64,000 nt of DNA from Paralichthys olivaceus. Taxonomy: Eukaryota; Chordata; Actinopteri; Pleuronectiformes; Paralichthyidae. Made by a program: the position numbers and the translations under genes. The DNA is taken from NCBI RefSeq assembly GCF_024713975.1, contig NC_091111.1, positions 20,228,501-20,292,500 of the forward strand, written 5' to 3'. Positions 1 to 34,720 of this stretch are shown piece by piece (position 1 is the stretch's first letter; each line of letters opens with the position of its first letter). The notes beneath the pieces were generated by a model. It worked only from the letters and a program-made list of their open reading frames with translations. It made no database searches and had not been told where the DNA came from.

Positions 1-68
1 AGAAGCAGCTCCAGACTCAGTGAGCCGCCATCAGTCTCTTCTTCGTCACCTTCTCTCTCGGCTTCAAG

Positions 69-3000
69 ATGCTTCGTGCTCGCTCGGCTCTTTCCGCCAG
101 AGAAGAGAACTCACTGTGCAGTCAGACCGACAACATGGCGCTGGACAAAGAAAACACGGTGAGACTTCTTCTTCGAGCTCAGACTGTCGGCGGCCATTGT
201 CCTGATGTGTTCGCCCTGACTGAGCCGTGTCCCCGGGCTGCTCCGGTGTTTCCGGTAGTTTGTGGAGACTTGATCGAGTTGTGCTCTCTTGTGTTTGCAG
301 CCTCCCAGTGGGAACACCTCCCGCATCCTGGCGTCGAAAACCGCGCGAAAAATCTTCTCTGACGCTGCGGTAAGTGAATCAGCTGAAAGCTTCAGGGTTT
401 AAATCGTCATCACACACGTCACCTTTGTTCACGACGACGTCACAGAGCGGGAGTTTTTATTGTTTCTCACATGGCGCCTAAATGATGGTTGTGGCGCCAA
501 CCTGACGATCAGCCTTCAGCGTGACGTCACTTCCGCGGCTTCTATGTTTTCATGTTCGTGTCAATGTTTGAATCACGTCAAACTTAATTAACACTGACGT
601 CACATCAGGCTGTGCTCAATGTTGTGGTAGAAAATATGAAGGTCTGATGTTTGTGACATCACTGAGCTGCTGATCAATACACATCATCTACACACGAGCT
701 TCATTCATCCAATAAAACGGTCTCAGACAAACATGTTGAGGTCAGAGTCTAAACTGTTTCTGTGGAGTTTATACTTTGGTGGAGTTTGGACACACATGAC
801 ACTTTTGTCAGACATGTCGTGAGTTTGATCACTGAAACGTGTCACGTTTAGTCTGAAGATCATTTTAAACATTTCAAACCAAGAAGATCAGCTCGTCTGC
901 AGCTGAAGAACCAGAGAACCTCTGATGTTTGATCTGAACTCAACTTTCAGCTCTGAAAGACTCATTTCACTCAGAACCACGTGAACGCTCCCGTTACAAA
1001 ATGAGCCTCTTCTGTTGTTTTTCAGCCCAAAGTCGTGAAGAAGAGCAGCAGCGAGGGGGAGGAGCCGCTGCTGAAAGAAAACCCGCAGCGCTTCGTCATC
1101 TTCCCCATCCAGTACCATGACATCTGGCAGATGTACAAGAAGGCCGAGGCATCTTTCTGGACCGCAGAGGAGGTAAGCGTGACAGCCGCTGCTCTCAGCG
1201 ACGCCTCAGGGTAACGCGGCCGTCTTGACGTGGCGCTAACGGCTTATTTTTTGTGTCGCGCAGGTCGACCTGTCAAAGGATCTGCAGCACTGGGAGTCTC
1301 TGAAGGAGGAGGAGAGGTACTTCATCTCTCACGTGTTGGCGTTCTTCGCCGCCAGCGACGGCATCGTCAACGAGAACCTGGTGAGTGTGACCGAGCTGCG
1401 GTCTGAACTGGTTATTGCTGTGTTTTAAGTTTGTGATTGGACGTGTGTGATTCTGAACTCTCACCCTGTGACCACCAGGTGGAGCGCTTTACGCAGGAAG
1501 TGCAGGTGACCGAGGCCCGGTGTTTCTATGGTTTCCAGATCGCCATGGAGAACATCCACTCGGAGATGTATAGCCTTCTCATCGACACGTACATCAAGGA
1601 GCCCAAAGAGAGGTGAGCTCTCTACTGCCTCCTACTGTTTTCTCCCGGTCTGTGCTGTTGTCTGACGCTGCGTTCACTGCCCCTCAGAGAATACCTGTTC
1701 AACGCCATCGAGACTCTGCCGTGTGTGAAGAAGAAGGCCGACTGGGCGATCAACTGGATCGGCAACAACAAAGCCGCCTTTGGTAAAGCTGCTCGCCGTG
1801 AGCCCGCGTGATGTTGTGGTGCCTGATCGTTCAGGTTTGGTATTGATGATCTGCGTCTGCTATTGATCCTCCAGGAGAGCGGGTGGTGGCCTTCGCGGCA
1901 GTGGAGGGAATCTTCTTCTCTGGTTCGTTCGCTTCCATCTTCTGGCTGAAGAAGAGAGGTCTCATGCCCGGCCTGACCTTCTCCAACGAGCTCATCAGCA
2001 GAGATGAGGTGAGCGCCTCGCACTAACGCCACGCCCCCCATGACCAGCCACTAACTGATCTGCTTGTTTACTGCGTCCGTCCGTTGATCACAGTTCATTC
2101 ATCGTGATCAATCAAATTGTCAGCAGTTGATCCATAATGAGAATATGAGACAGACGATGTTGTTGTGAACCAGCAGCAGGAAGATGTGGTCGAGTTAATG
2201 ACGCCACGTTGAAAACATCAAGTCAAAGTAATGAATGATGAACGAGTCACAAACGACCGGAGGAGTAAAGAGATGAACTCTGTGGATGTTCATACAAGAG
2301 AAAGTGTTTACGTGAAGTTCATTCTAGTTTTGTTTGTCACTTTTTCTTCTGGTCTGTCATGAACTGACAGATGCTCTTTGTGCTCGTGACCTCTGACCCT
2401 GACTCAGCTTTAACTCGGGTGTGTGCTCGTATAAACAGCGTGTTTTGTGACTGTGCTGCGTTCAGGGTCTGCACTGTGACTTCGCCTGTCTGATGTTCAA
2501 ACACCTGCTCAACAAGCCGTCCAAAGAAACCGTCACCAGCATCATCAAGAACGCCGTGGCCATCGAGCAGGTCGGTCTGCAGGGCGCGCCCTCACCCACG
2601 TGACGCATCAACGCGTGTCTGTCGACCACTGAACTGTTTGTTGACCTGTTGTGTTTATTTGTGCGTCAGGAGTTCCTGACGGAGGCTCTGCCCGTGAAGC
2701 TGATCGGGATGAACTGTGAACTCATGAAGCAGTACATCGAGTTTGTGGCCGACCGACTGATGCTGGAGCTCGGCTTCGCCAAGGTAACCACCCGGGGTCT
2801 GTGGGCCGCAGGGGCGGGGTCTGTGATGATGAGAAGCGCAGGGGTACGGACCTCAGCCAGTGATGGGGGCTGAGTGCTGCTGCTGCAGTCTGATCAGAGG
2901 ACGAGTGGTTCACTGACGGACGCCAGCAGCACGAGACAGACGCCACACTGAACAGACCCCGACTACACTGTTGTAGAGTCGTTAGTGAAAATGAGAAGCT

Positions 3001-3207
3001 GCTCAGATATTTCAAGTGTTGAACAGAGAGTAAACTGACGTCTGGTCTCCGCAGATCTATCGGGTGGAGAACCCCTTCGACTTCATGGAGAACATCTCTC
3101 TGGAGGGAAAGACCAACTTCTTTGAGAAGCGTGTGGGCGAGTACCAGAGGATGGGCGTCATGTCCGGCCCCACGGACAACACCTTCAGACTCGACGCAGA
3201 CTTCTGA
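69..3207 (+). CDS. rrm2: Ribonucleoside-diphosphate reductase small subunit M2, copy 1 (10 coding exons)
   Basis: Small (R2) subunit of class Ia ribonucleotide reductase. It makes the di-iron tyrosyl radical that the R1 subunit uses to reduce NDPs to dNDPs. Coding exons: 69-158, 301-369, 1026-1172, 1264-1380, 1479-1612, 1688-1782, 1875-2008, 2466-2570, 2670-2783, 3055-3207. They join in phase to 385 aa (human 389). All iron ligands are visible by alignment: D134, E165, H168, E228, E262, H265, with radical Tyr Y172. The N-terminus keeps a KEN box (DKENTP), the APC/C-Cdh1 degron, and an RxI motif (ARKIF) like the cyclin F site. These mark it as the S-phase M2 gene rather than p53R2. The C-terminal LDADF R1-binding tail is intact. 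The ATG at 69 was chosen because its N-terminus resembles human MLSLRVPL; an internal ATG at 135 is the alternative. It is an inverted copy of the gene at 31406-34542. The promoter lies off the left edge. Confidence 0.95.
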
Positions 3208-3767
3208 GGCCGTGGCCGGACCAACCACCGCTAGGCCACACGTTCCAGCCGCCGCTCGAGGCCGTCGCTGACCTCTGCTGGAAGACGACTGACGTGTGTA
3301 CGTTGACTTTTGTATCGGACCTCATTTTAATGGTCACAGCTTATCAGCTGGCTGCTGGTTAAATTAATAATGGACTTTTCAAAGTAAGAGCACAGCAGTG
3401 CCAGGATCCACAACCTGAGTGATCATTTTAACGCTGAACATATTCTGTTAACTGATGTTTGTTTTTATGGATTCAGATTTATTGTCTTTTAACTGAACTT
3501 TTAGTTTGTGTGATTTGTACAGTCAGTAGGTTTTTATCAGAGTGATGTTAACTCTTCGGTTGTTGGTTTTAGAAAAACATGTTACTGCTTAACCATCAAT
3601 TCGAATGAAAATCTAACATTTTGACAAGATGACATCATCAGAACCAAGCTAGCTGTTTCCTAATGTTTCCAGTCTTTATGCTAAGCTACGTAGCAGCAGA
3701 CTGTAACTTCATATTGTCATTATTGTTATATTTATTCTCAGTTGCTTATTTTTTTTCTGTCAATAAA
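3208..3767 (+). other. rrm2: Probable 3' UTR of rrm2 copy 1
   Basis: Sequence after the TGA. The first ~77 bases (to about 3284) are shared with copy 2, then the two copies diverge abruptly. A canonical AATAAA lies at about 3762-3767, with T-rich sequence around it. No transcript support. Confidence 0.5.
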
Positions 3768-34400: not shown

Positions 34401-34542
34401 ACACATCAGGACAATGGCCGCCGACAGTCTGAGCTCGAAGAAGAAGTCTCACCGTGTTTTCTTTGTCCAGCGCCATGTTGTCGGTCTGACTGCACAGTGA
34501 GTTCTCTTCTCTGGCGGAAAGAGCCGAGCGAGCACGAAGCAT
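31406..34542 (-). CDS. rrm2: Ribonucleoside-diphosphate reductase small subunit M2, copy 2 (10 coding exons)
   Basis: Inverted copy of the gene at 69-3207, encoding the same 385 aa R2 subunit. Coding exons, 5' to 3' on the minus strand: 34542-34453, 34310-34242, 33587-33441, 33349-33233, 33134-33001, 32925-32831, 32738-32605, 32147-32043, 31943-31830, 31558-31406. Each maps to its partner by a constant coordinate sum (34613; 34611 for exons 1-2 because of a 2 bp intron-2 indel). I compared exons 4, 5, 7, 8 and 10 base by base and found no difference. Differences are confined to introns. All iron ligands, the radical tyrosine, KEN box and C-terminal LDADF are present, so it appears functional. 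Its position and orientation next to klf11 match human RRM2-KLF11 synteny, so it is likely the ancestral locus. It has a full promoter upstream. Confidence 0.95.
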
Positions 34543-34596
34543 CTTGAAGCCGAGAGAGAAGGTGACGAAGAAGAGACTGATGGCGGCTCACTGAGT

Positions 34597-34720
34597 CTGG
34601 AGCTGCTTCTTCTGGAGCTGCTTCTTCTGGAGCTGCTTCTTCTGGAGCTGCTTCTTCTGGAGCTGCTTCTTCTGGAGCTGCTTCTTCTGGAGCTTCTTCT
34701 TCTGGAGCTTCTTCTTCTTT
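34597..34720. repeat. 15 bp tandem repeat in the rrm2 copy 2 leader
   Basis: About eight copies of TCTGGAGCTGCTTCT, the last ones TCTGGAGCTTCTTCT. Starts right where similarity to copy 1 runs off the window edge, so it cannot be compared. Confidence 0.9.

Follow-up and report, generated by a model that had tools for sequence, protein, structure and literature searches.

In the genome of Paralichthys olivaceus (588 Mb in 25 contigs), we analysed a window of 64,000 nucleotides (C19:20228501-20292500), which carries two near-identical rrm2 genes in inverted orientation, one on each side of lgals8, and each with a SNORD94 gene in its intron 9. Positions are those of the window, and position 0 is the base preceding window base 1, so that -488 lies 489 bases outside the window. 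This inverted duplication of a whole transcription unit is, short of read-level proof, real and recent, and it is probably tied to a small inversion.

Inverted arms

Self-comparison of the window gave an inverted pair of 3,288 aligned positions with 99.6% identity, introns included, which bears out the preliminary description of this DNA. The only other inverted pair at an E value of 1e-20 with low-complexity filtering was a single match of 151 positions. The length and identity of the arms exclude a chance match. The comparison was extended with 70 kb of left flank to trace the arm ends, the wider self-comparison that had been proposed earlier, and placed the left arm (+ strand, 1..3288 in the window) at a true start of -488 (C19:20228012) and the right arm, its reverse complement (- strand), at 31325..35232. 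The left arm ends at -488 and 3286-3288 (3,775 bases) and the right arm at 35232 and 31325-31327 (3,906 bases). The arm thus runs past the window edge by 489 bases, as had been supposed, but the duplicated block is about 3.8 kb, gene-sized and not large; the right arm, formerly taken to end at 34613, reaches 35232 once the left flank is included. A much longer duplication was rejected, since the 61 best-scoring matches listed (those within the two satellites excluded) were only the arms and tandem-array matches.

Alignment of the arms showed 12 substitutions in 3,767 aligned bases and four indels of 6, 127, 12 and 2 bases. The 1,158-base coding sequence carried neither substitution nor indel, and noncoding divergence was 12/2,609 (0.46%), one of the 12 being the last base of the aligned arm. 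The coordinate sum of the two arms is 34611 to the left of about position 543 and 34613 to the right of it, so the shift between these two values noticed earlier is placed there. Each arm contains a promoter region, 10 coding exons, 9 introns and about 80 bases beyond the stop codon, and the spacer between them (3289-31324) is 28.0 kb. A repeat of 15-mer and 41-mer units before the ATG, probably in the 5' leader, is 139 bases longer in the right copy (34596..34842, - strand). The flanks differ at all four arm ends, and the 3' flanks of the two copies are unrelated beyond about 80 bases past the stop; AATAAA is at 3762 for the left copy and at 31046 for the right copy. If both copies are transcribed, their mRNAs should be distinguishable at both ends.

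The rrm2 genes and their products

The coding sequence of the left copy, rrm2-L, lies at 69..3207 on the + strand (exons 69-158, 301-369, 1026-1172, 1264-1380, 1479-1612, 1688-1782, 1875-2008, 2466-2570, 2670-2783 and 3055-3207). That of the right copy, rrm2-R, lies at 31406..34542 on the - strand with identical exon sequences. Both genes are complete, with 10 coding exons, GT-AG introns and identical products of 385 amino acids, and they converge on the 28.0 kb spacer, in agreement with the preliminary description. The product matched the whole Ribonuc_red_sm domain (PF00268, 399.2 bits, profile positions 1-281 of 281), and its best PDB matches were the R2 chains 1h0n and 2uw2. The iron ligands, radical tyrosine and transfer residues agreed at 11 of 11 checked positions with those listed for crucian carp R2 (PMC3419237). 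A KEN box at residue 27 indicates R2 rather than p53R2. In the left-arm promoter there are ATTGG/CCAAT motifs at -181, -140 and -110 and an E2F-like site at -121, which we take to be promoter elements of these types, and the alignment showed no arm difference in this stretch (-181 to -110).

Among the best candidates scored in the genome-wide search, only these two were full rrm2 matches, and the next-best match, on C20, reads as rrm2b. A processed retrogene was rejected because 9 of 9 coding introns are kept in both copies. To judge from their sequence, both copies look functional. With two genes encoding an identical R2 behind the same promoter sites, R2 output could rise, and the two copies could be regulated separately through their differing 5' leaders and their unrelated 3' flanks. 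We looked for the native rrm2 3' untranslated region (3'UTR) with what we presume to be the let-7 and Pumilio motifs: no let-7 seed was present in either 3' flank and one Pumilio-like site was found, in the right flank only, so that neither flank was singled out.

SNORD94 in intron 9

Intron 9 of rrm2-L contains SNORD94 at 2820..2956 (+ strand) and intron 9 of rrm2-R contains it at 31657..31793 (- strand). Both copies scored 70.9 bits with the Rfam covariance model RF00613, against a gathering score of 60. No further SNORD94 was found in the genome among the 42 of 59,555 first-look candidates that were scored. The arms therefore double SNORD94 as well as rrm2, on which the preliminary description was silent. 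Each copy can yield snord94, so snord94 output could rise.

The host relation itself is already known, since a zebrafish U94 morpholino was designed within an rrm2 intron, and knockdown of zebrafish snord94 is described as causing developmental abnormalities including heart malformations (PMC6023535). The zebrafish gene is likewise hosted by rrm2, in the second intron according to that paper, whereas in P. olivaceus the host-guest pair is doubled and snord94 lies in intron 9 by exon count. We found no report of a snord94 doubling in the literature searched.

Age of the duplication

If 2-5 x 10^-9 changes per site and year are assumed, the duplication would be about 0.5-1.1 million years old, and older still if there is conversion between the arms. 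A gene-conversion tract gave no signal (longest identical noncoding run, P 0.125). The absence of all 12 substitutions from the coding sequence has P 0.012 under uniform placement. Only 1.1 synonymous changes are expected between the copies, and the probability of none is 0.32; therefore youth alone suffices to explain the unchanged coding sequence, and we rejected selection as an inference from it.

Assembly quality

It might be asked whether a second haplotype or a chimeric join was placed as an inverted copy. There is no N base from -1499 to 36000, and the contig end is telomere-capped, TTAGGG occurring 1,512 times in the final 10 kb of C19 and once in the first 10 kb. Farther out, the left flank has N runs of 1,500 and 5,000 bases whose ends fall on round genome coordinates, so that they look masked and not unsequenced, and 5,000 N also occur in the first stretch of right flank. 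The arms differ by 12 substitutions and in repeat length, and each of the four arm ends has a flank of its own, one of which shows a templated scar. For these reasons an assembly artefact is unlikely on the assembled sequence, and we give it very little credence.

Spacer and gene neighbourhood

The spacer contains lgals8 (5158..10306, + strand), which has two galectin domains (PF00337) and whose gene ends were read from the frames. It is followed by a satellite of 658 copies of a 30-base unit at 10599..30345, which agrees with the roughly 20 kb satellite reported before; its copies diverge from the unit to about the same degree throughout (identity 0.88-0.92). Inserted at the satellite edge is an element (30346..30866) that is flanked by TTA and whose terminal inverted repeats, nearly 50 bases long, match each other; we assume it to be PIF/Harbinger-like. 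A LINE-like fragment (long interspersed nuclear element) lies between rrm2-L and lgals8 (3979-4344), with 78-79% identity to several places in the genome.

To the left of the arms are genes presumed from their reading frames, and from Pfam domains where given, to be tiam2-like, arid1b (BAF250_C) and zdhhc14 (DHHC), all on the + strand. To the right, the neighbour of the right copy is presumably klf11 (zinc fingers by Pfam; 37502..39815, - strand), followed by adam17 (reprolysin) on the + strand. Tandem arrays also occur right of the arms, with 21-base units at 61555-62305 and 44945-46184 and a 13-base unit at 39987-41078; the last two sit between klf11 and adam17, and an array at -25844 to -25520 is related to the one at 44945-46184.

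The gene neighbourhood is ordinary, because published lists name klf11, rrm2, tmem242 and arid1b around lgals8: in gar, the neighbours are klf11 (printed as "kif11"), rrm2, tmem242 and arid1b, with the order not stated (PMC4989294), and in ray-finned fishes tmem242, rrm2 and klf11 (PMC10343441, Table 1). The neighbour lists of these two papers do not name a second rrm2.

Comparison with the region on C12

The best second match of zdhhc14 is on C12, where arid1b, zdhhc14 and lgals8 are adjacent too, in a region that we take to be a duplicate from the teleost genome duplication. The best second klf11 match is also on C12, 3.5 Mb away. Several tandem genes, presumably ifi27/ISG12-like, occupy C12:17622000-17637500 beside the C12 lgals8, and genes that we take to be nt5c1b-like and mycn-like lie beyond.

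On C12 five lgals8 exons are on the + strand and the zdhhc14 exons on the - strand, so that the genes converge, whereas on C19 both are on the + strand. The orientation of lgals8 relative to zdhhc14 is therefore opposite, and lgals8 has been reversed on one of the two chromosomes. The ends of the reversed segment are the arms, which suggests that the reversal of the spacer and the duplication belong together; inverted near-identical copies at both ends of a segment are a feature of breakpoint-duplication inversions and are present here. The earlier proposal that the arms go with an inversion of the spacer thus gains real support from the reversed lgals8, but not decisive support, as the comparison with C12 can neither date the reversal nor tell on which chromosome it took place.

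Which rrm2 copy is the original

We consider it fairly likely, from sequence features at the arm edges, that the left copy is the original. First, a 78-position copy (97.4%) of the arm segment -317..-240, here called X', lies at 35231..35307 on the - strand, where it borders the right arm on its 5' side and overlaps it by 2 bases. We interpret it as a templated scar of the junction, of the sort that template switching leaves, and its position at the edge of the right arm points to the left copy as the original.

Second, the first 25 arm bases (-488 to -464) match C12:17644050-17644074 at 23 of 25 positions, between zdhhc14 and lgals8 and in the same orientation to zdhhc14, which again suits the left copy as the original. 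In a control with six pieces, both orientations and 100 shuffles each, the score of this match (40) was reached by 0 of 100 shuffles (maximum 31). Two of the 12 comparisons, those with the whole arm and with its first 429 bases, both on the + strand, contain the 25-base match, and none of 100 shuffles reached either; for the other ten, the nearest was a poly-C run, reached by 3 of 100. A genome-wide search with a pattern built from the C12 match itself (at most 2 mismatches) found the C12 site, the two arms and one 2-mismatch place on C7, and the reversed control found none; this count rejects a dispersed repeat at the arm edge.

Other noncoding similarities say less. The word CTGACGTGT directly follows the left arm (3289..3297, + strand), and the only other copy in the window is its reverse complement at 35331-35339, beyond the scar. 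The match is weak, since a 9-base word is shared by 0.4% (12 versus 150 bases) or 1.1% (20 versus 150) of random window pairs and four flank pairings were compared. Under a flip of the spacer this recurrence might be a duplicated break site, to which we attach little weight. For capture of the gene by a transposon, which terminal repeats and a target-site duplication around the unit would mark, the flanks offered this one weak 9-base word; no search aimed at terminal repeats was made. Among the best candidates scored for the left inner flank and the right outer flank, we recognised no split transposon that would show which flanks were once adjacent. Matching of the noncoding flanks with C12 (24 comparisons, 60 shuffles each) gave two matches unreached by shuffles, a poly-C run and a weak 21-base match (19/21) between the left inner flank and the 5' side of the C12 lgals8. 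The latter is neutral between the models because the left inner flank adjoins lgals8 in every one of them. The right inner flank also gave an AT-rich match of 53 bases within lgals8 on C12 (E 1e-4, lenient scoring), which was not used.

Several points weigh against the left copy as the original and against the linked flip. It is an unexplained coincidence that the 25-base element begins exactly at the arm edge. A C12 stretch of 120 kb showed no convincing rrm2 relic, the best E value in tblastn being 4.3. C12 is a duplicate region and not an outgroup, so the flip may be older or may lie on the C12 side. The 9-base word counts for little, as an 8-base word also joins the left inner flank to the zdhhc14 side.

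The remaining points favour the opposite history, in which the right copy is the original, an inverted rrm2 copy was inserted into the zdhhc14 3' region, the spacer was not flipped, and lgals8 turned at another time or on C12. In human, klf11 and rrm2 are, as we assume, neighbours in the same orientation, which suits this order. Between the zdhhc14 stop and the left arm no AATAAA or ATTAAA was found, and one poly(A) signal follows the arm at 3762, so the left copy could interrupt the zdhhc14 3'UTR. The gene list around gar lgals8 would also suit the right copy, though its order is not given (PMC4989294). Set against these are the scar X', which sits at the right copy and not the left, and the match of the arm's 5' edge to the zdhhc14-lgals8 interval on C12. 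We regard this history as possible but unlikely.

Proposed origin of the locus

With moderate confidence, we propose that rrm2 and its snord94 were duplicated, and the spacer with lgals8 flipped, in a single recent breakage or template-switch event. At rrm2, between zdhhc14 and lgals8, the DNA would have broken with staggered ends or a stalled fork would have switched template; another break would have fallen between lgals8 and klf11. Repair would then have copied the rrm2 block to both ends of the lgals8 segment, which would have rejoined in flipped orientation, leaving the 78-base templated scar at the new rrm2-klf11 junction.

The same arrangement might be reached in two steps, with the inverted copy made first and the 28 kb spacer flipped later, once or more, by recombination between the arms; such flips may still segregate. 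This course is consistent with inverted arms that are 3.8 kb long and differ by 12 substitutions over 3,767 aligned bases, and with the reversal of lgals8 relative to C12; in Atlantic herring, where inverted duplications border three of four inversions, these are ascribed to ectopic recombination (PMC11499932). Recurrence, however, cannot be shown from one genome, and no conversion tract stands out between the arms (P 0.125 for the longest identical noncoding run), so we think this course rather improbable. Slightly more doubtful still is a live inversion switch, in which the arms, made by one lgals8-flipping break, would still recombine, swapping the rrm2 3' flanks and the lgals8 orientation within the species and doubling the output of dNTP (deoxynucleoside triphosphate) supply and of the guide for U6 small nuclear RNA (snRNA).

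Comparison with known systems

Like this locus, the herring inversions come from a fish and from long-read assemblies, and three of the four flipped segments have inverted duplications at their ends. They are megabase inversions with duplications of 8 to 60 kb (8 and 3 kb in a legend) that hold one or no gene, whereas in P. olivaceus the segment is 28 kb and each arm is one complete gene; both arrangements were sampled in herring, but our data are from one genome (PMC11499932). Staggered-break inversions of Drosophila subobscura likewise have inverted duplications at the breakpoints as a by-product of the break. There, the duplications are described as confined to the breakpoints of inverted arrangements, while in P. 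olivaceus there is only one arrangement to compare (PMC5080602). Crucian carp also has two R2 genes, R2i and R2ii, but these are expressed paralogs ascribed to a genome duplication, with proteins 95% identical (PMC3419237), in contrast to the local, recent and inverted duplicate described here, which has identical predicted proteins. No paper on an inverted rrm2 duplication in a teleost was found in the literature searched. The locus clearly adds a new example to an already known class of events.

Of the two subunits, R2 is widely held to be the one that limits dNTP supply in S phase, and because of this a recent intact second rrm2 amounts to a natural experiment in gene dosage. Along with the gene for dNTP supply, the event doubles a guide RNA for the modification of U6 snRNA, as no SNORD94 other than the two in the arms was found in the genome. 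With its scar and its flipped gene, the locus is a small case, known at base resolution, of an inversion that may have given rise to a complete duplicate gene.

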